Source: Planctomycetia bacterium
GTDB taxonomy: Bacteria; Planctomycetota; Phycisphaerae; Phycisphaerales; SM1A02
Reading direction: 5' to 3'
Length of the DNA stretch: 46,755 nucleotides
Assembly: GCA_005792145.1 (NCBI GenBank)
Contig: SXSS01000115.1
Span: 1 to 46,755, forward strand
Below, piece by piece: positions 3,872 to 31,770 of this stretch. Positions within the stretch are counted from its first letter, which is position 1. Each line of letters starts with the position of its first letter. The notes beneath the pieces are model-generated. The model worked only from the letters and a program-made list of their open reading frames with translations. It did no database searches and was not told where the DNA came from. The translations under genes and the position numbers were made by a program.

Positions 3872-3876
3872 ACACC

Positions 3877-3883: not shown

Positions 3884-3888
3884 TCCCC

Positions 3889-4620: not shown

Positions 4621-5195
4621 CGATTCAGTCGTGGCGCGCTTTCTACAACGCAGAAATCAAACGGATCTTTTGTGCAGTCGATCTCGACCATAAAAAAACC
4701 ACCTCTATGTTTCTGAGCGTTGGGCCACATGACTCGCCGGTCCGTTTCGGGCAGACCCATTCCGTTGCCAAGTCCTGCGACTTCTTCGACGGGGACCCAT
4801 TGCAATTTGCCTTCGTCGAAATCCATTCTTGTGACATCCGCAGCAACGATTGGCTTGACCGATTCAAAGAGGAAGATCAGCCAGTGATGTTCATTCTGAT
4901 ATGCGCGTTCTGAAACGATGCCAAACAATCGGATGTCTTGATGATCTAATGTCAGACCCGCTTCTTCCCAAGTCTCTCGGCGAGCGCATTCGTGCGGCGA
5001 TTCACCTCGATGGAATTCGACTTTGCCTCCAATGGGGGAATACATCCCAGGATTTGGCTTCTTCAGTCTGTGCAACATCAGAAGGCGATTCTGTTCGTCA
5101 TAGAGATAGACCAAAACTGCAATCTTGTATGGCAGATTTGGCGCGTTTTCCAGAGGATTCGTTGCTTGTCCTGAAGCCCCAGCAGGAATCGTCAC
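4617..5195 (-). CDS. NUDIX hydrolase
   Basis: Mg-dependent hydrolase of nucleoside-diphosphate-linked substrates; the specific substrate is unknown. The 192 residues hold a NUDIX fold from about residue 22 (YKIAVLVYLYDEQNRLLMLHR). The box reads GGKVEFHRGE, then RRETWEEAGL, so the catalytic REx2EE part is intact. There are two extra residues between the box glycine and the first glutamate compared with the usual G-x5-E. It overlaps the end of dapA by 4 bp (ATGA), so it should be translationally coupled to dapA in the glmM-dapA-nudix operon. The link to lysine or cell-wall synthesis is inferred from position only. Confidence 0.9.
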   Translation of the reverse strand: MTIPAGASGQATNPLENAPNLPYKIAVLVYLYDEQNRLLMLHRLKKPNPGMYSPIGGKVEFHRGESPHECARRETWEEAGLTLDHQDIRLFGIVSERAYQNEHHWLIFLFESVKPIVAADVTRMDFDEGKLQWVPVEEVAGLGNGMGLPETDRRVMWPNAQKHRGGFFMVEIDCTKDPFDFCVVESAPRLNR

Positions 5196-15033: not shown

Positions 15034-15573
15034 ATGTTCGCATCTAAAACAAATCAATTGAAATGGTCCTTGTCCACATGGCAGCGCACTGAAACGTCGC
15101 ATATGCCAACGCGCTTTATTGTTGGGTATGACGAGGAAGAAGAAAAAGACTTTGAACTTGAAGAAGAAGACGACTTCGACGACGAGGAGTTTGGAGACGA
15201 AGATGGATTTGGCGAAGAAGACGATGGTACGAAGCCAGCAACTGATAAAGATGGCGAAGAAGACGAAGATGAAGTCGATGAAGAAGAAGGAGAAGAAGGA
15301 CCTGAATTGATGTCCAACGATAAGTTGGAGGGTACTGGCAGAAAAGAAAAATCTGACGGTGACGACGGTGACGACGACGACGACGATGATGTCAAGCCAT
15401 CAAAGGGTCCAAAATCGAAGGAGTCTGAACTCGCCAATAAAGAAAAGTTGAAGAAAGCAAAGGCTAAGAAAGCGCTCAAAGCCAAGAAGGCCAAGAAAGC
15501 AAAGAAAGCTAAAAAAGCAAAAGAGGCTCTTGACGACGAAGATGATGACGATATCGAAGAGAACGATATTTAA
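15034..15573 (+). CDS. Low-complexity acidic/lysine-rich protein
   Basis: Protein of up to 179 residues, almost wholly compositionally biased. After MPTRFIVGY comes a Glu/Asp-rich tract of about 70 residues. A KSDGDDG segment with a long Asp run follows, then a Lys/Ala block built on KKAK repeats like histone H1 or bacterial Lys-rich tails, and a final acidic DDEDDDDIEENDI. The charge blocks (acidic, then basic, then acidic) imply a disordered polyampholyte. It could bind nucleic acid, ribosomes or cations. AGGAG lies 11 nt before the ATG at 15034; the ATG at 15103 (MPTRF) is an equally possible start. The reverse-strand Ser-rich frame is a shadow. Confidence 0.65.
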   Translation: MFASKTNQLKWSLSTWQRTETSHMPTRFIVGYDEEEEKDFELEEEDDFDDEEFGDEDGFGEEDDGTKPATDKDGEEDEDEVDEEEGEEGPELMSNDKLEGTGRKEKSDGDDGDDDDDDDVKPSKGPKSKESELANKEKLKKAKAKKALKAKKAKKAKKAKKAKEALDDEDDDDIEENDI

Positions 15574-16843: not shown

Positions 16844-19690
16844 TTATGGGTTCGAAGGTTGGATTGGTGCGATAGGATCAACAGGCTTCCCACCAGTCTT
16901 GTCTGGCAAAATCAACTTATTCTTTTCAACCAATTTTTCAGTTTCGGAGTTGAGAGGCTTCGAAAGAACTTCGAGGCGTTCTCGCTCGTCGGCATTGAAG
17001 TTTGTGTCATTCTCATCTGGAGTGTCCACAACGGTTGGTGTCACAAAGATCAGCAGTTCCTTACTCGCTGAATTTGAATTCTTGTTGCTAAAAAAGAAAT
17101 CAAGAATTGGAATATCGCCAAGAATTGGGAATCCGTTCTTTTCATTGGCTTGCGATTCCACGCGAACCCCGCTGATGCACACAGTCTGTTCATTTTTGAC
17201 AGTGACTATCGTATTTGTAGATCGTCTGGAAATCACGGGGTTGCCACTTCCACCAACATCGACAGCCGAGGTTGTGTTGACATTCGAGAGCAGCACTTTG
17301 ATTTCCATGGCCACATTCTTTTCTTTCGTAATGCGTGGTCGCACATTCAAGCCAATACCGACTGGAATCTGATCGAAACTGGATGTTGTTCCGCCACCAG
17401 TAGTTCCACCAGTTGTGGATCCTGTAAGGAATGGAACATCATCGCCTGCAAAGAATTCCGCCAACTGGTTGTCGCTGGTAAAGACGCGTGGTTGTTGGAG
17501 AATCCGAACCGAAGTATCTCGTTGAAGCGCTTGCAAAATGACGGTCGCATCAACACCAAAAGTGAAGTTTGAAGTGTTCAGTTCTCCAGGGAAAATATTG
17601 TCCTTGCTGCCGTCAAATTTTGCTGAGTCGATGACAACGGCATTGTTCGGATTCGCAGGAGAAATGCTTCCATTTGGTCCAAATTGAATTCCCATAGCAA
17701 AGAGATCACCGAGTTCGACCTCCGCCAAGATGCTCGAAATCATGACTTGCCTTCCTGGCTGATCAAGTTCAGCGATGAGCGTCAGAACTGCAGTCTGTAT
17801 CTCAGGAGTAGCAAGAACCAACAGCGAGTTTTGGTTTGCATTTGGAACAACACGACTCTTACCGATTACAGCGCTGACTTCGGTGGACTCCGCACCATTG
17901 GCTCCGCCCCGAGCATTCTGCCATGGGAATTCAATAGTCGTACCGGAGGTCGTTCCGCCAGATCCTGCGCCAGAACCCGTGGTGTTTGATGAGTCTGTGG
18001 CACCTCCTGCATCGAATGCCGAACTTGGGTCGGTGACACCTTGCTCCGGCGCAGTTATTCCAGCACCCGACCCACTTTCAGCAAGCAATGCGTTAATGAT
18101 TTCAGCCAGTCCGACCGCGCTCGCATATTTCAGTTGAACATTTGTCGGCATTCCAACGGTCAGAGGCGTGTCGATCTTTGAGAGGAGTTCATCAAGCCAC
18201 ACGAAGTTGTCGGGGGTCTTGGTGACGATGATCAGACGATTCGAATCGGGATACGCCTCGATTCGAAAGATATTGGCAACAGCAACATCCGCACTTGAGT
18301 CGCCACCACCACCGCCGCCGCCAGCAAGTCGGGTTGCGCCGCCTCTTGCTCCTCCGCCCTGTGAGCGGCTTGCAGCACCAGATTCGAGAAGTGACTGCAA
18401 AAGATCTTTGACCTTCAATGGGTCCGTGTACTTCAAGTCGTATGACTTGAAAATCGCGCCATTTTTCGTGGGTGGAACATCCCACGATGTCGCAATCATT
18501 TCGCCAATCATTTCCAATGTGTGCGGATCAGATCGAACTGTGATCGAGTTTGTCGCAGCAAGAACTGTAACAACCAGAGTTGGTCCATCTGCGCCACCAG
18601 CCGTAGGAGCAGCGGGTTGATTTGGATTCTGTCCTGGCCGTTGATTTTGTCGATTCGGTGTTCGTGACGAGGACGCACTGCTTCCCGAGCCAGAATAGAT
18701 CGCGGTGATGGCGTCAGAGATCAATGTTGCATCTGCATTTCGAATTTGAAATGTCTCGGTTCGAGTATCAGAAAATGGCGAGACATCCAAAACATTGATG
18801 ATGTCTTGGCAGCGCTTGGCCAATCCCACATCTCCCTCAAGGATGATCTGATTTGAATTATTGTCAACATCCAACTTCGCATAGTCGGGCATCGAAGAAC
18901 TCAATCGGTCATAGATCGATTGAGCGCGGGTATTTTCAATGCCAAAAATCTTAATGACAACTTGACCATTTTCTTCAAGGCGCAAAACATCGACAGATGG
19001 TCCAAGGACCATCGCTGGCTGCAATTTGCCAACATTTGTCAGCATGTCCACCATGATCAGTTCGTCCGTCTCTACCACGCCAATGTCATTGAGACGAAAT
19101 GCTTGAAAAATTAACTCGAGGGCTTTGAGGCGGCTGATTGGTTTATCGTTGAGGATGCTGATGACTTGCGTACGAAGTTGAGCCATTCTGGGAATGACAG
19201 CTTTCCCAGTGCATTCCATGATGAAAGGGAATAGATCTTCGACTTTCGTTTCTTTGAAATTGATCATGACAGTTTCTGACATGTCAACTTGTCTTCGATC
19301 TGAGCGAAACTGGCGGATGATCGGTGGAGTTGCTGTATTGAGCAGAGTGAGATCCGCATCAGGCTGAGCGTTATTGATATCAACTTCAATTGGAATTTCT
19401 GCTGTTGGCGCAGCCTGCGCCACCGGTTCAACTGGAGCCGGTTCAACTGGGGCCGGTTCAACTGGGGCCGGCGCAACTGGAACTGGCGCTGGAACTGGCG
19501 CTGGAACTGGCGCTGGAACTGGCGCTGGAACTGGCGCTGGAACTGGCGCTGGAACTCTGGGCTGAGAATTCGGCTGAACTCCTCGACTGGAGGGCGACTG
19601 AATCGCAGCTGTCGCAGGAAAAGCAGAAATCAAAGAGCACAGCCCAAAGCTGAGCAGTTTTTTTGTATTGGATCGATTCTGTAAACTCAA
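16844..19690 (-). CDS. gspD: Type II secretion/type IV pilus secretin (GspD/PilQ family)
   Basis: Outer-membrane channel of the system, 948 residues. A signal peptide (cleavage near FPATAA) is followed by a Pro-Ala-Val low-complexity spacer (about 45-95). N0/N1-type KH-like ring domains come next (TVMINFKETKVEDLFPFI, AYPDSNRLIIVTKTPDNFVWLDELL), with Gly-rich and Gly-Ser-Thr linkers. The secretin core starts near GRQVMISSILAEVELGD and contains VFTSDNQLAEFFAGDDVPFL, a Gly/Thr-rich gate loop and IPVGIGLNVRPRI. The C-terminal strand TVVDTPDEND is followed by a 45-residue charged tail. Start is TTG at 19690, supported by GGAG 8 nt upstream. It lies 66 bp after the GspC-like gene. Confidence 0.93.
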   Translation of the reverse strand: MSLQNRSNTKKLLSFGLCSLISAFPATAAIQSPSSRGVQPNSQPRVPAPVPAPVPAPVPAPVPAPVPAPVPVAPAPVEPAPVEPAPVEPVAQAAPTAEIPIEVDINNAQPDADLTLLNTATPPIIRQFRSDRRQVDMSETVMINFKETKVEDLFPFIMECTGKAVIPRMAQLRTQVISILNDKPISRLKALELIFQAFRLNDIGVVETDELIMVDMLTNVGKLQPAMVLGPSVDVLRLEENGQVVIKIFGIENTRAQSIYDRLSSSMPDYAKLDVDNNSNQIILEGDVGLAKRCQDIINVLDVSPFSDTRTETFQIRNADATLISDAITAIYSGSGSSASSSRTPNRQNQRPGQNPNQPAAPTAGGADGPTLVVTVLAATNSITVRSDPHTLEMIGEMIATSWDVPPTKNGAIFKSYDLKYTDPLKVKDLLQSLLESGAASRSQGGGARGGATRLAGGGGGGGDSSADVAVANIFRIEAYPDSNRLIIVTKTPDNFVWLDELLSKIDTPLTVGMPTNVQLKYASAVGLAEIINALLAESGSGAGITAPEQGVTDPSSAFDAGGATDSSNTTGSGAGSGGTTSGTTIEFPWQNARGGANGAESTEVSAVIGKSRVVPNANQNSLLVLATPEIQTAVLTLIAELDQPGRQVMISSILAEVELGDLFAMGIQFGPNGSISPANPNNAVVIDSAKFDGSKDNIFPGELNTSNFTFGVDATVILQALQRDTSVRILQQPRVFTSDNQLAEFFAGDDVPFLTGSTTGGTTGGGTTSSFDQIPVGIGLNVRPRITKEKNVAMEIKVLLSNVNTTSAVDVGGSGNPVISRRSTNTIVTVKNEQTVCISGVRVESQANEKNGFPILGDIPILDFFFSNKNSNSASKELLIFVTPTVVDTPDENDTNFNADERERLEVLSKPLNSETEKLVEKNKLILPDKTGGKPVDPIAPIQPSNP
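19425..19469 (-). repeat. 15-bp tandem repeat in gspD (three copies)
   Basis: Three consecutive 15-bp units (plus-strand unit GGTTCAACTGGRGCC) encode Ala-Pro-Val-Glu-Pro on the minus strand. The first unit differs by one base. They sit next to the 12-bp repeat. Confidence 0.9.
19479..19550 (-). repeat. 12-bp tandem repeat in gspD (six perfect copies)
   Basis: Six perfect head-to-tail copies of the plus-strand unit GGAACTGGCGCT encode a Pro-Ala-Pro-Val repeat in the periplasmic linker just after the secretin signal peptide. The copies are identical at the DNA level, so the array is recent or maintained by slippage. Gain or loss of a unit keeps the frame. Confidence 0.95.
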
Positions 19691-19756: not shown

Positions 19757-20845
19757 TCAACGATAAAAACTAGATTGACGTTCTCGAAGAAGACCAAACT
19801 CGATTCGCAGGCGATCTTGGGTCGCTTGGTCAAGTCCTTGTGATTGTCGCGCTCGCGCCACGCGCGCAAGTGCTGTTGCGACATCACCTTGTGACATAGC
19901 GGAAATCTGTTCGGGGGTGATTGGCAGCAGAGGCGAACCTACCAGCGAGCCAGATGCCTTTGGAGCAGGTGGCGGCAGATTTGGTGGGTTGCTTTCATTC
20001 GCCCTTGCAGCGGATGGCGCAGAAGGTGGCTCAATAGATCGTGGCGCTTCCCGTTGTGCGTCTGATGCATCAGGGTTGGGTTCGTCATTCGTATCAACAG
20101 AGGATTGAACAGAGGCAGGCGGAGCGGGCGGCGTGATCGGACTTGCAGGTTTCGGTAGTTGGGTTTGTTCGCTCGCCACAGTTTTTTCATCCGCAGTTGG
20201 CACGCGAATGGTTGGAAATTTGATCGCGGAAGAACTTGAATTCCCAGCATTATTCAGTTTCGACATATCCGTCGGTGTCCAGACAGCGACGGAATAAATT
20301 CCACCCATATGTCCAATGCGAACATTGGTTGGAGGCTCGATTGCGATGATTTTAATTCCATTCTTTTCTTCGCCGACCTGAATTGTCAGATCGCTTCCAA
20401 AGAAGATCATTTGACCAAGCATTCCTGTTGGCTTCGTTCCCGTGTATTCCGAGGGAGCAGATGGTGGTGGCGGTGGCGGTGGCGGTGGAGGCGGGGCGAC
20501 TGGCGCAGGCGGTGGTGGAGCCGGTCTTGGTGGCGGTGATGGCATGGTGAACAAACTGCGGCCAGAAAAACGATCGACGGAAACCTTGACCAATGCTTCA
20601 TGCTTTTCAATTGCTTTGTTTATCGAGGAATTCGTCTCACTTTCGCTCTGCGATGTCATGAGCGTGACGGCTATCGGAATCAACTGTGCCGCGACGACCC
20701 ATCCACATATCACCACTGCGAGGAGACTTCCTATCAATGGAATGGACCAGCGGGAATCCAATCCAAATCGAAAATCATTTGTTCCGCGGAGAGTACCGGT
20801 TGATCTTTGCCCGGACGCATTCGAGGAACTTGCAAAGTCGCTCAT
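19757..20845 (-). CDS. GspC/PilP-like inner-membrane protein with poly-Pro linker
   Basis: Protein of 362 residues placed directly before the secretin, where GspC or PilP is expected. It has one N-terminal membrane segment (about 34-58), then a periplasmic Pro-rich linker with a run of 11 prolines. A small beta domain follows (FFGSDLTIQVGEEKNGIKIIAI...GGIYSVAVW) that may be the counterpart of the GspC HR/PilP domain. After a disordered Pro/Ser region comes a C-terminal helical module (about 308-362) nearly repeated in the GspL-like protein. I chose the ATG at 20845 because it overlaps the stop of the preceding gene as ATGA. The GspC assignment rests on topology and position. Confidence 0.7.
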   Translation of the reverse strand: MSDFASSSNASGQRSTGTLRGTNDFRFGLDSRWSIPLIGSLLAVVICGWVVAAQLIPIAVTLMTSQSESETNSSINKAIEKHEALVKVSVDRFSGRSLFTMPSPPPRPAPPPPAPVAPPPPPPPPPPPSAPSEYTGTKPTGMLGQMIFFGSDLTIQVGEEKNGIKIIAIEPPTNVRIGHMGGIYSVAVWTPTDMSKLNNAGNSSSSAIKFPTIRVPTADEKTVASEQTQLPKPASPITPPAPPASVQSSVDTNDEPNPDASDAQREAPRSIEPPSAPSAARANESNPPNLPPPAPKASGSLVGSPLLPITPEQISAMSQGDVATALARVARARQSQGLDQATQDRLRIEFGLLRERQSSFYR

Positions 20846-21453
20846 GATCCGCCTTTCTGCCGCAAACTGCGGGGGGCAATTGCCCACGCTTCGGTTGAAA
20901 TTCGGATGTCAACTTTCTTCTGACTTTCAATCCAACGCAATTTTATTGAGTTCAGTGAATCAATCGATGGGCAATTTTCTAAATCGGAGATGATCGCGGC
21001 CACATCGTCGGGCGAAATTTCGAATTGGACATCGCCTCGAATACGCTCGATTCGACCTCCAGTACCAGCGATTTCAGAGAGTGAACTTTGAGGAAATTTG
21101 CCGGCAGAAATCGCGTCGTATCCGTACAAAGTGATGCGATGCTTCTTCATCGTTTCATTCACGGCGAGCGCGAGACTCTCGGATGTCTTTGCAAAATCTT
21201 CTGGGATTTCAACTGTTCCGAATACGGTCGCCGACTGCTTCACATTCTCGGGGAGAGCGTCTTGTCGCGCCGCACCCCGTTCGAGCAACGCTTGCAGGCG
21301 GTCGCCTTCCTTCGCCCATATTCGAGCATAGTTCCAACAGTAATCATCGAGGAACACATAGAGCAGGCAAACACCTAGAGCAACAATCACGACACGCCAA
21401 AGAGGTTTCAATTCTAAAAAACGTACCACAAGTTTTTTTTGTGTCGTGCTCAT
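20842..21453 (-). CDS. GspM/PilO-like inner-membrane assembly protein
   Basis: Protein of 203 residues with one membrane span near the N-terminus (about 20-36, WRVVIVALGVCLLYVFL), then a periplasmic coiled-coil stretch (KEGDRLQALLERG). A ferredoxin-like alpha/beta domain follows (ITLYGYDAI..., VQFEISPDDVAAIISDLEN, KVDIRISTEAW). This is the layout of GspM and PilO, which pair with GspL/PilN in the inner-membrane platform. It overlaps the genes on both sides by 4 bp (ATGA), so it is translationally coupled to the GspL-like and GspC-like genes. Sequence similarity to named families is weak, so the call rests on topology and synteny. Confidence 0.7.
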   Translation of the reverse strand: MSTTQKKLVVRFLELKPLWRVVIVALGVCLLYVFLDDYCWNYARIWAKEGDRLQALLERGAARQDALPENVKQSATVFGTVEIPEDFAKTSESLALAVNETMKKHRITLYGYDAISAGKFPQSSLSEIAGTGGRIERIRGDVQFEISPDDVAAIISDLENCPSIDSLNSIKLRWIESQKKVDIRISTEAWAIAPRSLRQKGGS

Positions 21454-23495
21454 TTCTTTTTTGCCTGCTCAAGTAGAAGATAGAACTCTTCACGAAGCCG
21501 CGCTTCAACAGCTGGATCAAGACCAGGCGCCCCACGCGCTTTTGAAACTCGTCCGAGTGCCTCGCGAGCCTCTGCTTGCGTCATTGCTGAAATCTGTTGA
21601 GAGGAGAGGGGCAGAGATATCGCTGTGGAATCATCGCCACTTCCTCCACGGCCACGGCGTACGGCATCTGGAGCCGCAGTTCCTGCGGATGAACTTCTTC
21701 GTTGCAATGATCGTGAGTCGCTTGGATTTCCCGCTGCCCTCGCATCACCTTTTTCGGCGCCGCTCTCTGGATCAGCGGACCCTTTGGGTTCAGTTGGGGT
21801 CGAAGCTTCAGCCTTCGCAACTGAAACAACATCTGGCGGGGACTGTTCGTCATTGTCCGAATTATTAGAATTCGTTGGCACAGAAGTTGCTTCGTCACTC
21901 ATCCCAAGTCCAACAGCCTTGGCATCCGTTACGGCTGGTCCATATCGTCGATCGCGCAGTGTTCTGGCAGCAAAGTCTTGTGTTTCAGGATAATTGGGAA
22001 CGAGCAAAGGATTCGCCACCGTTGCGCTGATCGTGAACTTCAGAACCCCATTGGCATTTGGAGCATCCCAGTTTTTTTCAATTCGATCAAAGACCCGTGA
22101 TTCTCGAAGTTGGCGCTCCATCAGAAGGATCGCTTCGGCGGCGGTGCTGCCTCCCTGAGGTTTCGCATTTCCTTGAACAGTCATTGGCGAGCCTTGAGTC
22201 AGCGCAATTGATTCAAGTTCGATTCCTTCTGGTGTGGATGAAGCAAGATCTGAAAGCAACTTTCCCATTGGCCAAGCAATCTTCTCATAATCGCGATACA
22301 TCACATTCTGTTTATCGGTACGGATAAGAGTTCGTTCAAATGCTGGGGCATCAGGCAAGGCCCACTGCAGATACAGCAGTCGAATTCCCGAAAGGGCTGG
22401 CGGAGCAATTGCAATCAAGAGCAGCGCAGCGATAGCGATACGAATGGCGATCTTGGGTGTGCTTGCGGCAGCAACGATTTTCGCAAGGAACTCCTTGTGT
22501 TGTACCGCAATGTTTTCTTTGAGAGATGCAATTCGAGCAAGCGGTCCGCTCAGAGCGACTGCAGTGCCAATCAGGATTCCATTTCGCTGCCACCAAAGAT
22601 CATCAGTTGAACTGGATTCTGCCAAAGTTCGAAATGATGGAAAACCCCCAGCGAGGGGCGCGATAAGTCCATCTGTTTGATCAATGAGCACAGCGTTGAG
22701 AGCATCCAATGCTGGCTGAATCGATTGCTCTGGAATGTCAGCAAGCATTAGAGTTTCTGATGTGCTGCGAATGACTGAGGCTCGCCACTCGGATTCATCG
22801 CTTCCATCTTCGCGCAGGGTTCGAAACGCACTATGAATTCCATCCGAATAGGCGATAGATATCGCGCCAGTCGCTCGTTCGAGGTGGACAGCGAGTGATT
22901 CACGGTTGCCTTGAAGAATCGCGCCAGTCACAAATGCGACAAGTGCCGCAATCGGAGGTGCATAGATAACCTCGAGTTGATCCTTAAATGAGGATGGAAG
23001 AAATGGCCCAGCGTTTGAGACGGGCCAATCAACCACCAAGCCAATTCGATCGTGGTCTGGATCGGCGGTTGGCAGCAGGGCCGAATTTGTTCGCCATCTC
23101 GCCGCTCCTCCTAAAAGAATGTTTTCAATCTGAAGTCTCAGCGCCATTTCTAATTGTTCCGTGGAAGCGGGAGGCAACTTCAGGGTTCGACAAATGACAT
23201 CACTACCAGCAAGCATGACGACGGTTCGCGCCGCGAGATTTTGTTCAATCCAAGAACGCGCATCTTCCATTCCACTGATGCCAACAAATGATTCAGAATC
23301 AAGAATCTCCGTGCGTCCATCGGCGATGCGTGCCAAAACGGCATCGCAATTCACAAGATTCCCCTCCGAGGAACTGACAGACAAAATCGCGACGCGACTT
23401 GGATCGGATTGGAGACTTGCTTGCTTCTTACCCGCTTTTTTTGCAGGCTTCAAGCTTGTCTCTTTTGTTTTCGTCTTTGTGAACTTCATGGACAT
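21450..23495 (-). CDS. GspL/PilM-PilN-like inner-membrane platform protein
   Basis: Protein of 681 residues. A Lys-rich N-terminus is followed by a cytoplasmic actin-like region resembling GspL/PilM (VAILSVSSSEGNLV, LAGSDVICRTLKLPPASTEQLEMALRLQIENIL). A membrane span (about 351-372) and a periplasmic PilN/GspL-like alpha/beta domain (about 400-495, including PEGIELESIAL and GVLKFTISATV) come next. A disordered acidic/Ser-rich linker (about 530-625) leads to a C-terminal module (629-675) shared with the GspC-like protein. One polypeptide thus covers what PilM and PilN do as two proteins. It lies 7 bp after gspK and overlaps the next gene by 4 bp. Confidence 0.75.
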   Translation of the reverse strand: MSMKFTKTKTKETSLKPAKKAGKKQASLQSDPSRVAILSVSSSEGNLVNCDAVLARIADGRTEILDSESFVGISGMEDARSWIEQNLAARTVVMLAGSDVICRTLKLPPASTEQLEMALRLQIENILLGGAARWRTNSALLPTADPDHDRIGLVVDWPVSNAGPFLPSSFKDQLEVIYAPPIAALVAFVTGAILQGNRESLAVHLERATGAISIAYSDGIHSAFRTLREDGSDESEWRASVIRSTSETLMLADIPEQSIQPALDALNAVLIDQTDGLIAPLAGGFPSFRTLAESSSTDDLWWQRNGILIGTAVALSGPLARIASLKENIAVQHKEFLAKIVAAASTPKIAIRIAIAALLLIAIAPPALSGIRLLYLQWALPDAPAFERTLIRTDKQNVMYRDYEKIAWPMGKLLSDLASSTPEGIELESIALTQGSPMTVQGNAKPQGGSTAAEAILLMERQLRESRVFDRIEKNWDAPNANGVLKFTISATVANPLLVPNYPETQDFAARTLRDRRYGPAVTDAKAVGLGMSDEATSVPTNSNNSDNDEQSPPDVVSVAKAEASTPTEPKGSADPESGAEKGDARAAGNPSDSRSLQRRSSSAGTAAPDAVRRGRGGSGDDSTAISLPLSSQQISAMTQAEAREALGRVSKARGAPGLDPAVEARLREEFYLLLEQAKKK

Positions 23496-23502
23496 TGTTG
23501 GT

Positions 23503-24945
23503 TTAGGGTTCTCTATACATCAGTATTTGCGCGGGCAGTGTCGAACGATCAACTGTCACAACCATTTCCGATTCTCCACCGACCGTGATGGATCGTCCTC
23601 GACACGAAATTGTAAAGACGAAGCTCTGGACATCTAGTTTCGTTGCGAGTGATGAAAGTATTTGCGGAGTCATTCCAGGAATGTCAAGAACAGCGGCAAG
23701 ACTTGTCAGCCCCGTGACCTTGGCGTCACGTCTGGAGAGAAGGCTATCGACAAGCTTGGGATTCATGTCGAAGACTTCCTTCAAGACTCTGCCAGAGACA
23801 GTGTTCACATTCATTTTGCCTGGTTCTGGCCGAGTGAATTCTTTGAGAGTGCACTCATTCATAACTTTTCCAATTGTGGCACTATCCAAATTCCCAGGTC
23901 CTGCTTGGGTGATGCCGCCAGTTGCGCCACTGTTTCCACTGCTCGATCTTCCCGTTCGACCTTGCGCGGATGAACCAGCTGAATTCTTACCGCCCGTTGC
24001 CGCACCCGCTCCGCCGATAGGGTTCGCGCCTCCAGCGGCGGATGTTCCTCCCTGAGAGAGCGTCGAAAGAGGAAGCACCAAGAGTTGTTCCAGTCGTGCA
24101 TTTGGAGTTTTTGCATACGCAAGAAGTGCGCTTGTTTGTGGTTCGGTCAATCCCAATCGTTCAACGACTTCCTCACTCTTTGCAGTCACAAGATTCAATC
24201 GGTCTTCTCCGCTCGCGGCACGAGGAGATGTCAGGGAACTCGCCGTCAATAGTCCAGACAATCCAGCGTCAAGAATTCCATCGTGATTATCTTCTGGCCA
24301 AGTCTCCTCTCCGTCATCTTCATTGGGATCGAGTCGACCATCCAAATTCCAATCTTCGCCACGAGTAGATTCTGGCCAAACTCCAGCGACTAATTCCAAT
24401 TCGGCAAAATTCCGAAAGCTCGCATTGCGTGGTTCGTAGGACTTGCCTCGATTTTGGTAATAGGTTTTTTCAGCACCAAGCATCCCTGCATCTTCATTCG
24501 TATCTCTCCAATCGACAATTGCGCCGACGACATCAGGTGTCATATCTTCAACATTCATCAACTCGGTAGTGCTGAGCAAATTGATATTGGCCTTGGAGTG
24601 TTCATCAAGTGGACCCGCATTTTCGATGCCATCCAAAAAGTGGCGAATGTCATAGGTGCCAGTCTCTAAAGTTCCATATGAGTTATCTTGAAGATCTAGG
24701 ATCAAAGCGAGTGCATCGTCAGGGTCAGGATTTTCCGTGTGATATTCCATAATCGCGATCATCGTTTCGACGCCTGCTCGTGCGGCCCAGCGAGCTTGAA
24801 CGCGAGCGATGGCATCGCTTCCCAAGACAGCTTGTCGAAAAGAAAGAATCTGAAGCCCCGCAACAATTGCTGCGGCAATAGCAACAGCCCAAATCACAAT
24901 GACTAACACAGACCCGCGTCGAGTTTTGACCGTTGCAGAATTCAA
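23503..24945 (-). CDS. gspK: Minor pseudopilin GspK with EF-hand-like loop
   Basis: Large pseudopilin (480 residues; GspK is usually about 320-350) that caps the pseudopilus with GspI and GspJ. The leader MNSATVKTRRG is followed by the hydrophobic helix SVLVIVIWAVAIAAAIV, without the usual Glu at mature position 5, as is typical of GspK. Family segments are KANINLL, VGAIVDWRDTNED, GAEKTYYQNRG and NFAELELVAGV, then SAM-like helices and KMNVNT. An inserted DWNLDGRLDPNE loop (about 198-209) matches a canonical EF-hand, and a degenerate second copy follows. A Gly/Ser-rich linker of about 60 residues lies near 310-360. It overlaps gspJ by 4 bp. Confidence 0.92.
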   Translation of the reverse strand: MNSATVKTRRGSVLVIVIWAVAIAAAIVAGLQILSFRQAVLGSDAIARVQARWAARAGVETMIAIMEYHTENPDPDDALALILDLQDNSYGTLETGTYDIRHFLDGIENAGPLDEHSKANINLLSTTELMNVEDMTPDVVGAIVDWRDTNEDAGMLGAEKTYYQNRGKSYEPRNASFRNFAELELVAGVWPESTRGEDWNLDGRLDPNEDDGEETWPEDNHDGILDAGLSGLLTASSLTSPRAASGEDRLNLVTAKSEEVVERLGLTEPQTSALLAYAKTPNARLEQLLVLPLSTLSQGGTSAAGGANPIGGAGAATGGKNSAGSSAQGRTGRSSSGNSGATGGITQAGPGNLDSATIGKVMNECTLKEFTRPEPGKMNVNTVSGRVLKEVFDMNPKLVDSLLSRRDAKVTGLTSLAAVLDIPGMTPQILSSLATKLDVQSFVFTISCRGRSITVGGESEMVVTVDRSTLPAQILMYREP

Positions 24946-26006
24946 TTTGGCCGGCCCCCAGTTCCTTGATTTGCAGGCCTATTTCCGCCAAAACCACCAC
25001 CTTGCCCACCTTGACCGCCGCGACCACCTTGCCCACCTTGACCGCCGCGACCACCCATTTGCCCACCTTGTCCGCCGCGACCACCCATTTGCCCACCTTG
25101 TCCGCCGCGACCACCCATTTGCCCACCTTGACCACCGCGTCCACCTTGACCGCCGCGACCACCGACGCCAGATAATCCATCAGTACCTTGCGTTCCCGCA
25201 ATTCCTGCTGCGCCGGCTCCAGCAATCGCAGCATCTACTTCAGCTTGCGTTGCTCCAGCAGCTGCAGCTGCTGCTGCTGCAAGTTCGCCCTCTGGCATAG
25301 AAGCAGGATCTTCAGCGGGTGGTTCTTCATATGGCGGGGGAACACGATCGATCGGGACGATTGTTCGAAGACTCATCAATTCGCGTGCATCTGCATAGAA
25401 ATCTGCGCCTTGTGCATCTCCTGCAGATGAAACTGTGACACGCAGTGCCACTGGCAGTCCATTGATGTCCGAGTCCCAAGAGTCATACCAGTCAGTTCCG
25501 TCGGATGCTTCAATATAAAGTCCGATGATCCCATCCATCATTGGCTCAGCTTTCCCACCGCCGCCTTCATTGTCATCCGGAACTGCATCGGATCGCATCC
25601 ATAGTGCGCTTCCCGATTCATCATCGCTGACACGCAACTGAACTTCGTGTTCGATTCCATCACCTTCATAGGTCTTATTGCGAACGGGCGAAAGTTTGGT
25701 GGAATAGATCAGGACGTCATTGCGCGGAAGTTCGCCGATGGGAGAATTGACAGAGTCGCCAGTCAGCAGAATTCTGGTGTCGATCAGGTTGTCGCTGCGG
25801 ATGACTTGCTGAATTTCGCGTCGAATTTTATCGAGTGCCGTATTCGCCCGCAAATGAGCGTTTAATCGAACTTTCGAACTTGCACGCGCACGCGCGAGTT
25901 GGCTCAACGATGTCCCCAAGGTCCCCACGACGATGACGGCGATGATTCCCGCAATGATCAATTCGACAAGTGTGAATCCGCGACGAGATGTTTTATTTCG
26001 TGACAT
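24942..26006 (-). CDS. gspJ: Minor pseudopilin GspJ with Gly-rich repeat tail
   Basis: Pseudopilin of 354 residues. The leader MSRNKTSRRG is followed by FTLVELIIAGIIAVIVVG with Glu at mature position 5. A GspJ-type globular domain follows (LDKIRREIQQVIRSD, NDVLIYSTKLSPV, VALRVTVSSA). After about residue 245 come a Pro/Glu segment, an Ala-rich run, and about 70 residues of GGRGGQGGQM repeats. I chose the ATG at 26006. It overlaps the end of gspI by 14 bp, with GGGGA just upstream; ATGs at 26012 and 26018 are alternatives, and the longer frame is shadow. The Gly tail is not part of known GspJ proteins and looks disordered. Confidence 0.88.
   Translation of the reverse strand: MSRNKTSRRGFTLVELIIAGIIAVIVVGTLGTSLSQLARARASSKVRLNAHLRANTALDKIRREIQQVIRSDNLIDTRILLTGDSVNSPIGELPRNDVLIYSTKLSPVRNKTYEGDGIEHEVQLRVSDDESGSALWMRSDAVPDDNEGGGGKAEPMMDGIIGLYIEASDGTDWYDSWDSDINGLPVALRVTVSSAGDAQGADFYADARELMSLRTIVPIDRVPPPYEEPPAEDPASMPEGELAAAAAAAAGATQAEVDAAIAGAGAAGIAGTQGTDGLSGVGGRGGQGGRGGQGGQMGGRGGQGGQMGGRGGQGGQMGGRGGQGGQGGRGGQGGQGGGFGGNRPANQGTGGRPN
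24996..25140 (-). repeat. Tandem 27-bp and 30-bp repeats encoding the GspJ Gly-rich tail
   Basis: Two 27-bp units (24996-25022 and 25023-25049) are followed by 30-bp units at 25051-25080 and 25081-25110, which are identical, and 25111-25140, which differs at three positions. All encode Gly-Gly-Arg-Gly-Gly-Gln-type sequence in the gspJ frame. The unit lengths are multiples of three, so copy-number change leaves the frame intact. This is a protein-coding satellite, not a CRISPR: there are no spacers. Confidence 0.92.
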
Positions 26007-26457
26007 TTCCATCCCCATTCTTGGATTCAAAGTATTCCTGACGATCGATTGGTTCCGATGGAGCACGCTCTGGATTGGGCTCATCGCCAAGTCGTAAAGC
26101 AATTCGGGTTGCACATCGAAATTCGCGACCGACTGGATCCGTGATGATTGCCAGAACTTCGCATGGCGCACCAGGCTCTGCTTTTTCGATCTCGATCTGA
26201 AATTGAAAGTCGGCCCACGGTGGATCGCAATTACCGGAAAGGTTGTGCGACTTCGGCCACAATTCTGGACCTTCAACAAGCACGCTGGCAAGAAGTTCGT
26301 CAAGTAATGCTGCGGCCATTACCGCACGTTCTCCGCGCTGTTGATCCATCAATGCACGCGCAGCTAAAGAGACGACTGATCCAAGACCGATCGCCAAAAT
26401 AATTCCAGCGATCACGACTTCGATGAGGGCGAATGCTCTGCGAGAATTTTTCACCAT
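25993..26457 (-). CDS. gspI: Minor pseudopilin GspI-like
   Basis: Pseudopilin of 154 residues. The leader MVKNSRRA is cleaved before FALIEVVIAGIILAIGLGSVV. The residue at -1 is Ala instead of Gly, and Glu is at mature position 5. The soluble part (AVMAAALLDELLASVLVEGPELW, FQFQIEIEKAEPGAPCEVLAIITDP) fits the GspI family, which starts the tip complex with GspJ and GspK. It overlaps gspH by 7 bp and gspJ by about 14 bp. The assignment to GspI rather than GspH relies on gene order (G-H-I-J-K) and the small size. Confidence 0.82.
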   Translation of the reverse strand: MVKNSRRAFALIEVVIAGIILAIGLGSVVSLAARALMDQQRGERAVMAAALLDELLASVLVEGPELWPKSHNLSGNCDPPWADFQFQIEIEKAEPGAPCEVLAIITDPVGREFRCATRIALRLGDEPNPERAPSEPIDRQEYFESKNGDGNVTK

Positions 26458-27023
26458 TTTTCGTCTCGCGTTCCATATTGATCGAGATCAAGAGTCTCAC
26501 GACTTTGAACGGCAGTTCCGCCCGCATCAAGCCGAGTAGGCACCATTGAATTCGAATCAAGTCGCAACACCGTATCGATCAATCCTGAGATCAGATGCAT
26601 CTCGATACTCGGACGACCTCCTCCTGGAACCGAAGGAATCAGCCAGTCCGATCCAGAAACTTCAACATCATCAATTGAAAGTCCGACCAATTCCATGCCT
26701 CGTGGAAGTGCAACGGGCGCAAGGCGAATATCCGCCACCCATTCGTACTTCGAGAGTTCCCCATCTTCGCTAGTTGCCAATGGGTCGCGATCTTTGGTCA
26801 GCATGGCGAACCATCCAGTTTCTGGATCCTGCCAGAGAGCGATCTGCTGCGATGAAGTTGAATCTCGAAAGGCATACATAGAAAGAAGGTCGCTCATTTT
26901 CACAATCGCGTTTTCGTGTTCGGCTTTGGTCGTTCGAGTGAGCCGAGGGACGATCATCGCGCTCAAGACAGCGAGAATCACCACCGCGACGATCACTTCA
27001 ATCAACGTGAACGCTCGGCGCAT
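26451..27023 (-). CDS. gspH: Minor pseudopilin GspH-like
   Basis: Pseudopilin of 190 residues with a very short leader, MRRA, before FTLIEVIVAVVILAVLSAMIVPRL (Ala at -1, Glu at mature position 5). The soluble domain (AIVKMSDLLSMYAFRDSTSSQQIALWQDPETGWFAM...) resembles the GspH/FimT beta domain by layout. It lies between gspG (8-bp gap) and gspI (7-bp overlap), the standard place of GspH. The 4-residue leader is among the shortest that prepilin peptidases process; I see no better upstream start in frame. Confidence 0.82.
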   Translation of the reverse strand: MRRAFTLIEVIVAVVILAVLSAMIVPRLTRTTKAEHENAIVKMSDLLSMYAFRDSTSSQQIALWQDPETGWFAMLTKDRDPLATSEDGELSKYEWVADIRLAPVALPRGMELVGLSIDDVEVSGSDWLIPSVPGGGRPSIEMHLISGLIDTVLRLDSNSMVPTRLDAGGTAVQSRETLDLDQYGTRDEKW

Positions 27024-27031
27024 ATCTTCCG

Positions 27032-27460
27032 CTACTCCTGTCCGTTGACGATGTCTTTGTTATCTCCATCGCCGCCTGGCTGTCCGTCCGCGCCATAGGA
27101 AACCAAATCAAAGTCTCTGTTGACTTCGCCTGGGATGATGATGATGTATGGATGCCCCCAAGGATCAAGGAGGGCTTTTTTGTTGTCAAGATATGGATCG
27201 TCTCCTTCAGTCAAGATATCCAGCTCAAAATCTTCTGGGCATCTGCTGAGCCCAGCTTCTGTCATATACAGACGGACTTGGTTGGCAAGCGATGCCGCTT
27301 CTGTCTTTGCGCGTTTGTCCTTCGCAGATCCAATAAACTTGGTCAGTCGTGGGACAAAGATCGCGGCCATAATGGCGACGATCGTGACTGCCACAATGAC
27401 TTCGATCAAACTGAATGCGCGTCGTTGGTGGGCAGAATGGGTTGGTTTTTTGATAGACAT
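27032..27460 (-). CDS. gspG: Major pseudopilin GspG
   Basis: Main subunit of the type II pseudopilus, 142 residues. The leader MSIKKPTHSAHQRRA is cleaved before FSLIEVIVAVTIVAIMAAIFVPRL (Ala at -1, Glu at +5). The C-terminal domain has the GspG hallmarks DPWGHPYIIIIPGE, DFDLVSYGADGQPGGDGDNKDI, which form the calcium site of major pseudopilins. A good ribosome-binding site (GAGGT, 4 nt before ATG) stands after a 54-bp AT-rich gap from gspF. That is the longest gap among the ATPase, platform and pseudopilin genes and is a possible site of extra expression control, as the major subunit is needed in excess. Confidence 0.96.
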   Translation of the reverse strand: MSIKKPTHSAHQRRAFSLIEVIVAVTIVAIMAAIFVPRLTKFIGSAKDKRAKTEAASLANQVRLYMTEAGLSRCPEDFELDILTEGDDPYLDNKKALLDPWGHPYIIIIPGEVNRDFDLVSYGADGQPGGDGDNKDIVNGQE

Positions 27461-27514: not shown

Positions 27515-28765
27515 TTATCCACCGATGGCGGCTTGAAGATTGAGAAGTGGAAGAAGAATGCCAAGCAAGACGAATCCTGCCACGAGTCCCATCACAATCA
27601 GCAGAATGGGAGGAAGCGCCTTGGTAAAAACTTTGAGTGAATTATTGACTTGGCGATCGAAGGCGGCAGCGGCATGCATCAGCATGGGTTCGAGTCGTCC
27701 TGAACGCTCTCCGATATTCACAATCTGAATGAGCAGTGGGGGAAAGAGTCCGGAACGCTCAAGCGGATCAGCCAGCGAAGATCCGGTTGTGACGCGTTCC
27801 TGCACCTCGTCGATCGCAGCCATCATTGCGGAATTGCCCAATGTGTCTCGAACGACTCGCAGAGCTTGCAAAATTGGAATGCCTGCGGAGACGAGAGTTC
27901 CAAGAGTGCGTGTAAAACGAGCGACCGCAACGTCCCGAAGCAGAACTCCGACAATCGGAAGACGAAGCAGAGTGAGATCTACAAACAATCGATTCTGTGG
28001 CTGGTCAATCCAACTTTTCCAACCAATAATGGCAGCAACTGTCGAAAGAGCGATCGCCCACCACCATCCTGTGATGAATCCAGCGATCCCCAAGAGAACT
28101 CTTGTGGGAAATGGAAGTTCCACTCCAGGCTGTCCAGTGATCGGGGCCATCAGTCGCGGAAGCACAAATGTGATCAGTACGACAACGCTGATGGAGATCA
28201 GCCCAGCGACAATCATTGGATAGACCGTTGCTCCGACAACTTCTCTTTTCAATTCGACGGATCGATCAAGAAGATCTGCCAATTGATGCAGAACTTCAGC
28301 GTTGCGTCCCGACGCATCAGCTGCGCGAAACATTCCAACAGTCATATCATCGAATGGAGGACCATACTCTTTCGCTGCTTGATGCAGTGGAACACCAGCT
28401 TCGACGCGTTCAATCAAAAAATCAATTATGACTGGAAGGGCACGCCCCGAAGCTTGACGACGGACCGTGCGCAATGATTGCATCAGAGGGAGACCAGCCT
28501 CGAGCGCCGTCGCAATTTCGCGGATGAAACTTGTGAGATCCGTTCGCGACATCGATGGTCGTCCTGTGCGACGCGGATTTGAAATCGATATTTTTTTCGG
28601 CAAAGCAAGGCGCGGCGATCTTCCTTGCGGCTCAGATTCACTTTCAATCGATGTCGCAACGATTCCATTTCGGGTCAAGATGCCGATTGCCTCGGCGCGA
28701 TCCTCTGCTTGGATTGTTCCTCCGCTTGCTGCGGCACCGAGTCCTTGATATCGAAAAGTCTGCAT
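27515..28765 (-). CDS. gspF: Inner-membrane platform protein GspF
   Basis: Polytopic platform protein (416 residues) that couples the ATPase to pseudopilus growth. It holds two GspF domains, the first beginning LTSFIREIATALEAGLPLMQSLRTV and the second FTRTLGTLVSAGIPILQALRVV. Membrane segments follow each domain (VYPMIVAGLISISVVVLITFVLP, WWWAIALSTVAAIIGW, PPILLIVMGLVAGFVLLGILLPLL). The N-terminal region (RYQGLGAAASGGTIQAEDRAEAIGIL) is the usual GspF/PilC start. It lies 8 bp after gspE. Length and order are standard for the family. Confidence 0.95.
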   Translation of the reverse strand: MQTFRYQGLGAAASGGTIQAEDRAEAIGILTRNGIVATSIESESEPQGRSPRLALPKKISISNPRRTGRPSMSRTDLTSFIREIATALEAGLPLMQSLRTVRRQASGRALPVIIDFLIERVEAGVPLHQAAKEYGPPFDDMTVGMFRAADASGRNAEVLHQLADLLDRSVELKREVVGATVYPMIVAGLISISVVVLITFVLPRLMAPITGQPGVELPFPTRVLLGIAGFITGWWWAIALSTVAAIIGWKSWIDQPQNRLFVDLTLLRLPIVGVLLRDVAVARFTRTLGTLVSAGIPILQALRVVRDTLGNSAMMAAIDEVQERVTTGSSLADPLERSGLFPPLLIQIVNIGERSGRLEPMLMHAAAAFDRQVNNSLKVFTKALPPILLIVMGLVAGFVLLGILLPLLNLQAAIGG

Positions 28766-28773: not shown

Positions 28774-30417
28774 CTATGGCTCAAAGTCGTCGACATCTTG
28801 CGTGGCACGCAAAACCTCAGGGATGGTGGTCAGGCCCGTTTGAGCTTTCATCATTCCGTCGTGACGCATGACGGTGAACTCCGCACCCGCCATTTCCTTC
28901 AGTTCCGCCACGGTCAGTCGTTTTGTGATTCCATTACGCAGCGCCGGATTCATTCGAAGCAATTCAAAGAAACCCAATCGTGATTTGAATCCTGTCTTTC
29001 TGCATTCTTCGCATCCAACGGCTTTCCACTCGCCACCTTCGAAGTCTGTAATTTCAGCTGAAGTCAGGCGAGATTTTGTTTCGTCATTCAGTGGCCTACG
29101 CACTTTGCAATGCACGCAGAGCCGCCTTCCGAGTCGTTGAGCCAACAGACCTTCAAGCACGCTTGCAACCAAGAATGGTTCCGCGCCCATATCGACAAGT
29201 CGTCCGATGCTGGAAATAGCATCATTGGTGTGGAGCGTGGAAAGGATGAGATGTCCCGTGAGTGCGGATCGAATTGCGATGTCAACAGTTTCGTTGTCTC
29301 GAATTTCACCCACCAGAATGACGTCGGGATCTTGACGAAGAATGGCGCGCAGACCGATCGAGAAAGTCAGTCCTCGTTTTGGATTGACAGGAATCTGATT
29401 CACGCCAGGCAATTCGTATTCAACGGGATCTTCAATCGTGATGATCTTCTTGCGCGGGTCATAGAGTTTGCTCAACGCTGCGTACAGAGTTGTTGTTTTT
29501 CCAGATCCAGTCGGTCCAGTGACCAACAGCAAACCGTGTGGTTTTTCGATCAGCCGATCCATCGTGTTTCGGTGCGACTCGCTCATCCCCAAACTTTGCA
29601 AATCCAAAGCAAGATTGCTCTTGTCCAAAATACGCATCACGATGCTTTCGCCATAGATGGTTGGAACTGTCGAAACTCGCAAATCAACTTTTCGGCCTTC
29701 GAAGCGCAATGTGATGTGACCGTCCTGCGGGACATATCGCTCCGCAATATTCATCATCGCCATGATCTTCACTCGACCGATCAGGGCAGCTTGCAAATGC
29801 TTCGGCGGTGGAGGTTGTTCGATCAGCACTCCGTCGACGCGGTATTTGATCTTCAAGTCGTTTTCGAATGGCTCGATGTGAATGTCACTTGTGCGACTTT
29901 GAATCGCTTCCAGAATGAACAGATTGACAAGGTTGATCAGCGTTGGCTGTTCAGCCATTCGATGTACGTCGGCAGCTTCGATTGCATCGACATTGTGATC
30001 CGATTCATCGGTCGTCGATTCATTATTGCCTGCGAGAGATTCTGCGACGCGTGCGGCAGTTGTTCCATACGCGCGCCGCATAAGTTCTCCGAAGGCCTCC
30101 GGTTCCACGCCCACGCGTGTCACGGGAAGTTTCGCGATCGCAGCGATTTCGTCAGCGGCACCGACATCGAGCGGGTTGAACATCGCAACGATCAACCGTC
30201 CGCGTTCAATTCGAATAGGAACGGAGCGAACTCGAACCGCGACTTCGGGGGTCAACAACTCAATCGCAGCTGGATCAGTCTCTGGTGGTTTTTCGACCCA
30301 AGAAATTCCTAACAAGCGACAGCGTTCGCGGATTTTTACCGATTCATCTGCCTCACTTGGTGGTGTGAGATTGGCCGCCGTGCCACCAAGTTGAAGATCG
30401 CTTGAAACTGGTGTCAT
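28774..30417 (-). CDS. gspE: Type II secretion assembly ATPase GspE
   Basis: Cytoplasmic hexameric ATPase (547 residues) that drives pseudopilus assembly. An N-terminal GspE/PilB domain (about 30-115) precedes the motor. Motor motifs are the Walker A GPTGSGKT (301-308), an Asp box (ITIEDPVEYELPGVNQ), Walker B DPDVILVGEIRD (about 363-374) and the His box (LSTLHTND). The zinc tetracysteine (Cys434, Cys437, Cys469, Cys472; CVHC and CEEC) is typical of GspE/PilB and absent from retraction ATPases such as PilT. It starts 3 bp after the upstream secreted-protein gene. Confidence 0.96.
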   Translation of the reverse strand: MTPVSSDLQLGGTAANLTPPSEADESVKIRERCRLLGISWVEKPPETDPAAIELLTPEVAVRVRSVPIRIERGRLIVAMFNPLDVGAADEIAAIAKLPVTRVGVEPEAFGELMRRAYGTTAARVAESLAGNNESTTDESDHNVDAIEAADVHRMAEQPTLINLVNLFILEAIQSRTSDIHIEPFENDLKIKYRVDGVLIEQPPPPKHLQAALIGRVKIMAMMNIAERYVPQDGHITLRFEGRKVDLRVSTVPTIYGESIVMRILDKSNLALDLQSLGMSESHRNTMDRLIEKPHGLLLVTGPTGSGKTTTLYAALSKLYDPRKKIITIEDPVEYELPGVNQIPVNPKRGLTFSIGLRAILRQDPDVILVGEIRDNETVDIAIRSALTGHLILSTLHTNDAISSIGRLVDMGAEPFLVASVLEGLLAQRLGRRLCVHCKVRRPLNDETKSRLTSAEITDFEGGEWKAVGCEECRKTGFKSRLGFFELLRMNPALRNGITKRLTVAELKEMAGAEFTVMRHDGMMKAQTGLTTIPEVLRATQDVDDFEP

Positions 30418-30420
30418 TTT

Positions 30421-31770
30421 TTAGTCGGCAGTCTTAGGAGGTGCAGTTTTTGAATTGTCACGTCCAGAGCTTGTTGGTCGGGCGAAAGCGCCGTTATCTG
30501 CTGGAGCTCCTCTAGGACTATCGCCACCAGAATCCGTATTCAGCCCAGGTCCGTTTACTTCGCCTTTACCTTTGCCACTGCCCATTGGACGCTGAGCGGC
30601 TGAGGCTAACTTCGCAGCGCCGGGGAGTTGTTCCGAAAGTTCTGGTCCAACGATCTGGGCAATTTTTTGGCGAGTCTTTTCATCCATCGCGTCGCGTTCG
30701 TCAAGCATCGGTCGATATGGATCCGATGGTGGCTTCTGTACATTGGCACCTCCTTGGCTCGCTTTGCGTCGAGTTTCTTCGGTCTGCTTCTTTGGCTCCT
30801 CGGTGCGATAGAGCACTGCCAATCGCGTTCTCCAATCCTCATAGAATGTGACATATTCCACTTGGAGAGCATTGAGCTGAGCGATCTGCTCTGGTGAAAG
30901 TCCTGACAATTCGAGCGCAGCAGCAAAGTATGGAATCATCGGACTTGGCCGATAGACAGCGGGAAATGCAGTTGAAAGTGCTTTTGCCAGAAAAATTGGC
31001 CCCCAAGTATCTCCGTACCCCTTTGCAATTGCCTCCCTCGAAGAATCTTGCAAGTCACGCAATGCGACGCGAGTTGCCACAATCAATTCCAATTCCTTCA
31101 GTCCACGCACATAATCCTGAGCAACGAGTGCTTCTTTAATCTTGTCTTGCGAAGCGAGCAACTGATTTGCCCGTACAACAAGAGCGGCGTCCAATCCAAT
31201 TTCGTATTCCTCAAGCACTTCTTTGTTTGCGAGCATGACATCAGGCGGTATTTCGCACTCTCGAGAAACTTGTCGCAGATCGACACTCTCTCCACTGAGA
31301 AGTCCACGAGGAAGTTCCTTCTCTCGGCGCATTGCTCGCTCTAGTTTTGGCCACCGTGCCTGTTGTTCATCGCTGAGAACGCTGCGTAGATTTTCGATGA
31401 ATCTCTGCTTCAATCGAGCCTTTTCTAGAATCCATTTGTTGATAGGTCCCATGATGACTCCCATCGCCCCCTTATCACCAGCGTTGATTATCTGATCTTT
31501 CATCCCCTTCATTTCATCACGCAGTCCATCAGTTCCAAGCTTAAAGTCGTCTGAGTAATCCTGCATCAAACTTTCAACCGTCGGTACTTGCCATTCTTCC
31601 AAGGCGAGAAAATCAACAAAGAGCGTGATGTCTCTATTCATGTAATCAGGCTGAAATGCTTCCACGAATCCCGCCTGAAGTCCCAGCTGTGCTTGAGCTA
31701 CCGGAGCCGACAGTCCGACGCAGAGTGCGAATGCAGCAAGAAAAGTACGCGCGTTTGTTTTTACTCTCAT
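30421..31770 (-). CDS. Secreted helical protein, first gene of the secretion operon
   Basis: Protein of 449 residues with a clear signal peptide (MRVKTNARTFLAAFALCVGL..., cleavage after PVAQA). The mature part is strongly helical and charged. It carries two LTxxQ-like stretches (VLSDEQQARW and LSPEQIAQL) of the sort seen in Spy/CpxP periplasmic proteins, and ends in a Gly/Pro/Ser disordered tail of about 70 residues. I do not recognise the family as a whole. It has its own ribosome-binding site (AGGA, 8 nt before ATG) and is followed by gspE after 3 bp. A periplasmic chaperone, a system component or a main substrate are all possible. Confidence 0.8.
   Translation of the reverse strand: MRVKTNARTFLAAFALCVGLSAPVAQAQLGLQAGFVEAFQPDYMNRDITLFVDFLALEEWQVPTVESLMQDYSDDFKLGTDGLRDEMKGMKDQIINAGDKGAMGVIMGPINKWILEKARLKQRFIENLRSVLSDEQQARWPKLERAMRREKELPRGLLSGESVDLRQVSRECEIPPDVMLANKEVLEEYEIGLDAALVVRANQLLASQDKIKEALVAQDYVRGLKELELIVATRVALRDLQDSSREAIAKGYGDTWGPIFLAKALSTAFPAVYRPSPMIPYFAAALELSGLSPEQIAQLNALQVEYVTFYEDWRTRLAVLYRTEEPKKQTEETRRKASQGGANVQKPPSDPYRPMLDERDAMDEKTRQKIAQIVGPELSEQLPGAAKLASAAQRPMGSGKGKGEVNGPGLNTDSGGDSPRGAPADNGAFARPTSSGRDNSKTAPPKTAD

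Follow-up and report, generated by a model that had tools for sequence, protein, structure and literature searches.

A small C-terminal module shared by GspL and GspC of a Planctomycetes type II secretion system and by further proteins in related genomes

The stretch of DNA analysed here (the window) comprises 46,755 nucleotides of contig SXSS01000115.1 of a Planctomycetia bacterium (assembly GCA_005792145.1; Phycisphaerales, SM1A02) and contains an operon for a type II secretion system (T2SS). Two proteins of this operon, which resemble GspL and GspC, end in tails that are, judging from their sequences, homologous modules of about 50 residues. In relatives, the module was found on nearly every GspL, on a variable share of GspC proteins and on a range of other, mostly signal-bearing proteins. 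We tentatively favour the view that it serves for docking in the periplasm, belonged to GspL originally and has been grafted repeatedly onto exported proteins, an explanation that we consider possible and that falls a little short of probable. The features on which the analysis is based are the following:

21453..21611, minus strand: module, GspL copy (PLSSQQISAMTQ...LLLEQAKKK), extreme C-terminus
19760..19924, minus strand: module, GspC copy (PITPEQISAMSQ...RERQSSFYR), at the very C-terminus, where the second periplasmic (2P) region of GspC would lie
21450..23495, minus strand: gspL-like gene; matches TIGR01709 and PilN weakly, has by its sequence one transmembrane (TM) stretch, a long linker and the module
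19757..20845, minus strand: gspC-like gene; a TM helix and a proline-rich linker precede a small beta region, which a disordered linker joins to the module

Homology and predicted fold of the module

Residues 321-370 of GspC (numbered on open reading frame (ORF) 19757-20887, minus strand) and residues 628-677 of GspL (ORF 21450-23495, minus strand) are identical at 26 of 50 positions in an ungapped alignment with a BLASTP E-value of 4e-11. The score of the tail pair was 120, compared to a best score of 52 among 20,000 shuffled pairs. The initial annotation had described the shared tail with 24 ungapped identities over 47 residues, which is the same alignment, slightly shorter; the relationship is real and stronger than had been stated.

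AlphaFold2, given 14 related module sequences, returned three helices (positions 4-8, 12-26 and 33-51) with a pLDDT of 93.1 and a pTM of 0.75. This is in line with the helical structure expected in the initial annotation, and the module is predicted to be a small fold that would form autonomously. In the model of full-length GspC (mean pLDDT 51), a TM helix comes first, then a proline-rich stretch and a small beta region; some 120 disordered residues separate these from the module. The pLDDT is below 50 for residues 188-306 and about 90 for the module. The long disordered linker that had been annotated in front of both tails is thus borne out by the model for GspC; for GspL it was assessed from the sequence alone.

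The earlier remark that no such module is known in these proteins agrees with a Pfam and NCBIfam scan of 56 module sequences, in which no family was matched by more than three members. The best E-values were 0.0047 in Pfam (among 25 of 31 families listed) and 0.01 in NCBIfam, and the module appears to be a small domain outside the families of both libraries. A sequence search of the PDB with the module gave no match below 0.01 apart from the top row, the designed helical protein HeliScrew4 (E 9e-11), whose best stretch spans 15 residues and which was taken as a compositional match. Conserved in GspL and in the extra copies described below are, among others, E14, R26, R38, E42 and F43, together with the hydrophobic core. 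The GspC copies deviate at positions 14, 26 and 43, and at E14, R26 and F43 the extra copies agree more with GspL than with GspC.

Distribution across relatives

With a 33-row profile (E <= 0.001), 164 of the 181 genomes in the family to which the window belongs scored positive for the module, and with a 56-row profile (E <= 1e-4) the same was true for 214 of the 400 genomes sampled from the order. These large searches, and those outside the order described below, scored only part of the first-look candidates, and their misses are not firm. All 214 positive genomes of the order belong to four families, with 154 in the window's family (f1), which also contributed 16 genomes without a match to this sample, and 60 in f2, f3 and f4 together. 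Of these 60 genomes, 59 had a single match. A sample of 392 genomes from the phylum contained 25 with a match; 17 of them lie inside the order, and the matches of the eight outside it are partial. Matches outside the order were also weak, with E-values from 1.4e-5 to 0.009 in eight genomes and, in another search, from 5.6e-4 to 0.0099 in eight genomes. The best one (G566, E 1.4e-5) covered model positions 18-49.

The genome of the window contains two matches in all, namely GspL and GspC, and its second secretin locus, which by sequence has PilM/N/O-like genes, is without the module. The module is therefore linked to the T2SS.

Constancy on GspL and variability on GspC

In loci that had been fetched by GspL homology, GspL carried the module in 38 of 38 cases (38 genomes, 21 genera). 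The same was true for 76 of 76 GspL ORFs (one per genome) over all gathered loci, a set that includes loci pulled in by the module itself; the GspL of G345 was assigned by its tail, as part of the gene is masked. Among 19 genomes that had scored without (17) or only weakly with (2) the module, GspL could be located in ten, of which four proteins were truncated at the end of a contig, two showed a clear module and four showed a diverged form. Based on the 38 loci and this recheck of low-scoring genomes, GspL almost always ends in the module. In the loci read from other families of the order (g20, g21, g22 and g29), the module copy is on GspL as well.

A module-bearing ORF between gspL and gspD was present in at least 26 of 54 loci with both genes in view, which is a lower bound, as the script missed at least G009, G011 and G034 and some loci had no clear GspC in view. 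The pair noticed in the window thus recurs in relatives; GspL hardly ever lacks the module, and on GspC its presence varies.

Further copies on other proteins

Another 28 ORFs, from 20 genomes of 11 genera, carry a total of 37 modules. Extra copies were read only in genomes picked for closer search (27, then 30), which makes the 28 ORFs a lower bound; two module-ended proteins resembling the N-terminal domains of secretins (secretin-N-like), one in G449 and a second host in G450, were found later and are not part of this number. The confinement to secretion operons that the initial annotation had considered is accordingly not observed, and matches in unrelated proteins, which it had named as a refutation, do occur in part.

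According to Pfam, the hosts include seven DUF1579 proteins, three Ser/Thr kinases with TPR, two AhpC/thioredoxin-like proteins, two vWA proteins, one protein of the serine beta-lactamase family and one WD40 protein. The DUF1579 hosts (L098, L099, L166, L180 and L182-L184), which come from two genera (g7 and g14), have two tandem modules each. Host L176 consists of a signal-like stretch with a lipobox followed by scarcely more than the module. L177, which has no Pfam match, was taken as a fragment of a thioredoxin protein by its likeness to L170 and L173. Module scores were weak in L172 (E 3.5e-5) and L164 (E 8.5e-7). Left out of the count were another stretch of L167 that scored only weakly (E 0.22) and an internal stretch of the membrane protein L181 (residues 309-349, ORF 3708-5510 of G455, E 5e-5), which appeared by eye to be a coiled coil.

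A signal-like or TM stretch was found in 22 of the 28 hosts and in 37 of 117 neighbouring genes chosen by script as background (one-sided Fisher test, p 7e-6), although the hosts are not independent of each other, as seven are DUF1579 and seven secretin-N-like proteins. Of the six negative hosts, L071 and L177 have no readable start, and the others look signal-bearing by eye. Since the hosts are non-random in this respect, the module looks like a specific mobile extracytoplasmic domain rather than a generic helical motif. The generic motif was also rejected on the grounds that the profile is specific, with two matches in the genome of the window and partial, weak matches outside the order.

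The secretin-N-like hosts are small exported proteins, with the module at the C-terminus of L101, L165, L171, L174 and L178 and at the N-terminus of L167 and L169, two proteins of g37. Five of the seven form one clear family, to which the L167/L169 pair is linked weakly. Pfam Secretin_N matched three of the seven with E-values of 0.0015 to 0.04, all under the cut-off, and hhalign aligned the hosts end to end with the GspD N-domains of the order (five sequences) at a probability of 1.6%. A resemblance to secretin N0/N1 domains without the barrel is hence suggested as a lead rather than as a result. The profile of this family had matches in 67 of 181 genomes, some of them partial, in a search that likewise scored only part of its first-look candidates. 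Among 30 loci read, the module clearly ends the protein in seven (five g256 genomes, G025 and G377), and a weak match suggests the same for the protein of G020. The secretin-N-like protein of G460, which belongs to the same genus as G025, is without the module, and many other members end, by eye, in an apparent coiled coil.

Where the extra copies come from

The GspL tails of 37 genera served as the reference for every extra module. The tail from its own genus was the best match, with one tie, for 21 of the 37 modules; these 21, including the tied one, are found among the 23 modules outside DUF1579. GspC modules followed the GspL of their own genus in only 10 of 34 cases.

At the DNA level, 263 bp of G025 (L101:6768-7030) are 93.5% identical to the 3' end of its own gspL. 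The likeness continues past the stop codon and includes about 30 nt of gspM, and the host is a secreted-protein gene near mutS (named by eye). By its sequence this duplication is recent. In G018, a WD40-repeat gene at a contig edge has a chimeric end (L071:2143-2349), in which 161 bp with 90.7% identity to gspL of the congeneric G013 are followed by 53 bp of gspM. Similarity to the genome's own gspL was detected in four of six hosts tested, comprising the one of G025 and three others (67-143 bp, 70-76%).

A proposed docking domain native to GspL and its alternatives

In the explanation that we favour, GspL, an inner-membrane platform protein of the order's T2SS, would be the native bearer of a small extracytoplasmic docking domain that binds a putative partner at the periplasmic face of the machine. 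Exported proteins that gain the module would gain the same docking and may act as clients, regulators or substrates of the T2SS. Candidates for this partner include the secretin, a further module copy and some third protein. The GspC copy would sit in the 2P region, a suspected substrate dock. As a general partner it is unlikely as a rule, since GspC is without the module in the two g256 genomes read, and this genus holds 12 of the 37 extra copies. The interaction tag proposed in the initial annotation is plausible, although its scope was too narrow, as the module is not peculiar to GspC and GspL.

A T2SS with this module would be a variation on the known T2SS, to which it adds a module outside the searched family libraries. 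In a passage of PMC11981180, the 2P region of GspC is described as a PDZ domain or a single helix and presumed to be a substrate dock. That region follows the HR domain. The window's protein shares with it a C-terminal region that would be periplasmic and differs in that the region is a predicted three-helix module, not a PDZ domain, which is common to GspL and exported proteins. A table of the PDZ-protein survey PMC6411480 contains no entry of the GspC kind for the five Planctomycetes that it covers. For GspL, a section of PMC6233222 gives the ferredoxin-like domain of the periplasmic part as the C-terminal one, whereas here a long linker and the extra module follow behind the corresponding part. 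No account of such a tail was found in titles or abstract openings of the open-licence literature, by which its absence in print is not established. Even if docking should prove wrong, a small domain outside the Pfam and NCBIfam families would, within one order of Planctomycetes, have reshaped GspC and GspL at their periplasmic ends.

Several observations weigh against docking and recruitment. In two g256 genomes in which GspC was read (G453 and G454), the module is on GspL and absent from GspC; docking on the GspC copy can thus not be general, as g256 is the genus with the most extra copies read outside DUF1579. None of the 14 DUF1579 modules tracks the GspL of its own genus, and two of the six hosts tested (L100 and L159) gave no DNA match to their own gspL. 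A cruder hydropathy rule showed no enrichment, with 18 of 28 hosts compared to 384 of 605 ORFs, a background that included T2SS loci and wrong-frame ORFs. Some hosts, such as the WD40 protein L071 and the kinases, are not obvious secreted substrates. Furthermore, only 15 of 181 genomes of the family showed three or more matches and the genome of the window showed two, so that most T2SS substrates cannot need the module.

A more far-reaching version of the docking explanation sees the module as a transferable recruitment tag. It would be displayed flexibly in the periplasm by GspL and, in many lineages, by GspC as well, and exported proteins would acquire it by copying of the gspL 3' end and so become clients or substrates. 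We regard this as rather unlikely. If true, it would mean that a secretion system uses a recognition code of modular kind. How the T2SS recognises folded substrates is a long-standing question, and we know of no common signal for its substrates. A single C-terminal element on many unrelated exported proteins also occurs in the type IX secretion system (T9SS), in the form of its C-terminal domain. The GlyGly-CTERM sorting signal (PMC3237569) is likewise found at the C-termini of numerous exported proteins that are unrelated to each other. Different from both, the element described here is also part of the secretion platform itself. Within one genus, an exported protein occurs both with the module and in a form that lacks it, which offers a natural experiment.

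The hosts, which include a kinase, a redoxin, DUF1579 and vWA proteins and a lipoprotein, have little in common besides their extracytoplasmic location. This would also suit a general envelope anchor, in which peptidoglycan, a lipoprotein or some other part of the envelope would be the ligand of the module, and GspL and GspC would simply use it to fix the machine in the wall. Such an anchor is unlikely, considering that the module is confined, as sampled, to an order in which its constant host is GspL, that most extra copies outside DUF1579 are nearest to the local GspL, and that the library matches of the module contain no wall-binding family.

It may also be speculated that the tails of GspL and GspC pair and thereby stabilise the C-L-M platform, with the extra copies as by-products of DNA duplication. 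The genes are adjacent, both copies are present in many genomes, and GspC-type and GspL-type modules differ at positions 14, 26 and 43, as partners might. However, G453 and G454 have no module-bearing GspC, and the module is found on GspC in at least 26 of 54 loci compared to 38 of 38 for GspL, which weakens the earlier idea that the two tails bind each other. By-products would moreover be expected equally on cytoplasmic proteins, and the signal/TM comparison says otherwise. Taken together, we consider this pairing improbable.

Passive spread appears equally improbable. Here, segmental duplication would place a stable cap without a common function at the C-terminus of exported proteins, whose long linkers would allow it to be tolerated. 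Fresh copies do carry bits of the neighbouring gspM, including the fragment behind the WD40 copy, but divergent copies keep the core and the polar residues, the tandem copies of DUF1579 are maintained over two genera, and secretin-N-like proteins bear the module recurrently.

Descent of the module from ribosomal protein uL29 with retained RNA binding is highly implausible and was rejected: uL29 structures make up most of the closest fold matches (VIA, Z 8.0, rmsd 1.6 over 53 residues) and share a short N-terminal helix and a helical hairpin, but Z-scores under about 13 are common among small helical folds, the best Foldseek E-value was 0.43, hhalign against the order's own uL29 gave a probability of 2.1%, and the module is probably extracytoplasmic, which leaves a likeness of fold without sequence support.

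The T2SS operon of the window

The source genome (2.5 Mb in 152 contigs, the window being its contig 72) encodes the T2SS in a minus-strand operon with the gene order E-F-G-H-I-J-K-L-M-C-D. Clear family matches were obtained for E, F, G, K and D, whereas H, I, J, L, M and C were named by weak match, place or architecture. In addition to gspL and gspC, the operon contains:

28777..30420, minus strand: gspE ATPase; T2SSE E 9.9e-131
27515..28765, minus strand: gspF; T2SSF E 1.2e-53
27032..27460, minus strand: gspG major pseudopilin; T2SSG E 1.4e-17
26451..27023, minus strand: gspH-position minor pseudopilin; N_methyl
25993..26457, minus strand: gspI-position minor pseudopilin; assigned from its place and N-terminal motif, without a Pfam match
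24942..26303, minus strand: gspJ-like; weak T2SSJ match, below cut-off
23503..24945, minus strand: gspK-like; T2SSK_1st E 8e-10
20842..21453, minus strand: gspM-like, between gspL and gspC; weak NF040576 match, E 0.056
16844..19690, minus strand: gspD secretin; TIGR02517 E 3e-91 (below its cut-off), PF00263 E 4e-45

The GspL-like protein matched TIGR01709 with an E-value of 8e-6 and 25 bits (cut-off 65) and PF05134 with an E-value of 0.16. As regards a ferredoxin-like/PilN periplasmic domain, it matched PF05137 with an E-value of 0.038, under the cut-off. For gspC, the homology among the six GspC proteins compared sets in at ATG 20845, which is therefore a more likely start than GTG 20887 of ORF 19757-20887; this ATG overlaps the stop codon of gspM. 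The assignment as GspC agrees with a gene adjoining gspD in a T2SS operon and with a single N-terminal TM helix, which spans residues 32-64 in the model (low confidence) and is hydrophobic by sequence. As regards an HR domain, the model contains a small beta region (residues 147-188, pLDDT about 50-60) without a Pfam match. A PDZ or single-helix 2P region was not found, the position being taken by the predicted three-helix module, which has no Pfam match.

The GspJ-like protein (24942-26303) ends in a long glycine/glutamine repeat of the GGRGGQGGQM type, and the secretin (16844-19690) contains a long PAPV/EPAP repeat directly behind its signal-like start. ORF 15034-15573 encodes 179 amino acids with an acidic Asp/Glu half and a basic KKAKKAK half. 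Upstream of gspE, ORF 30424-31770 encodes a protein of 449 amino acids, which matches no Pfam family and begins in a signal-like manner.

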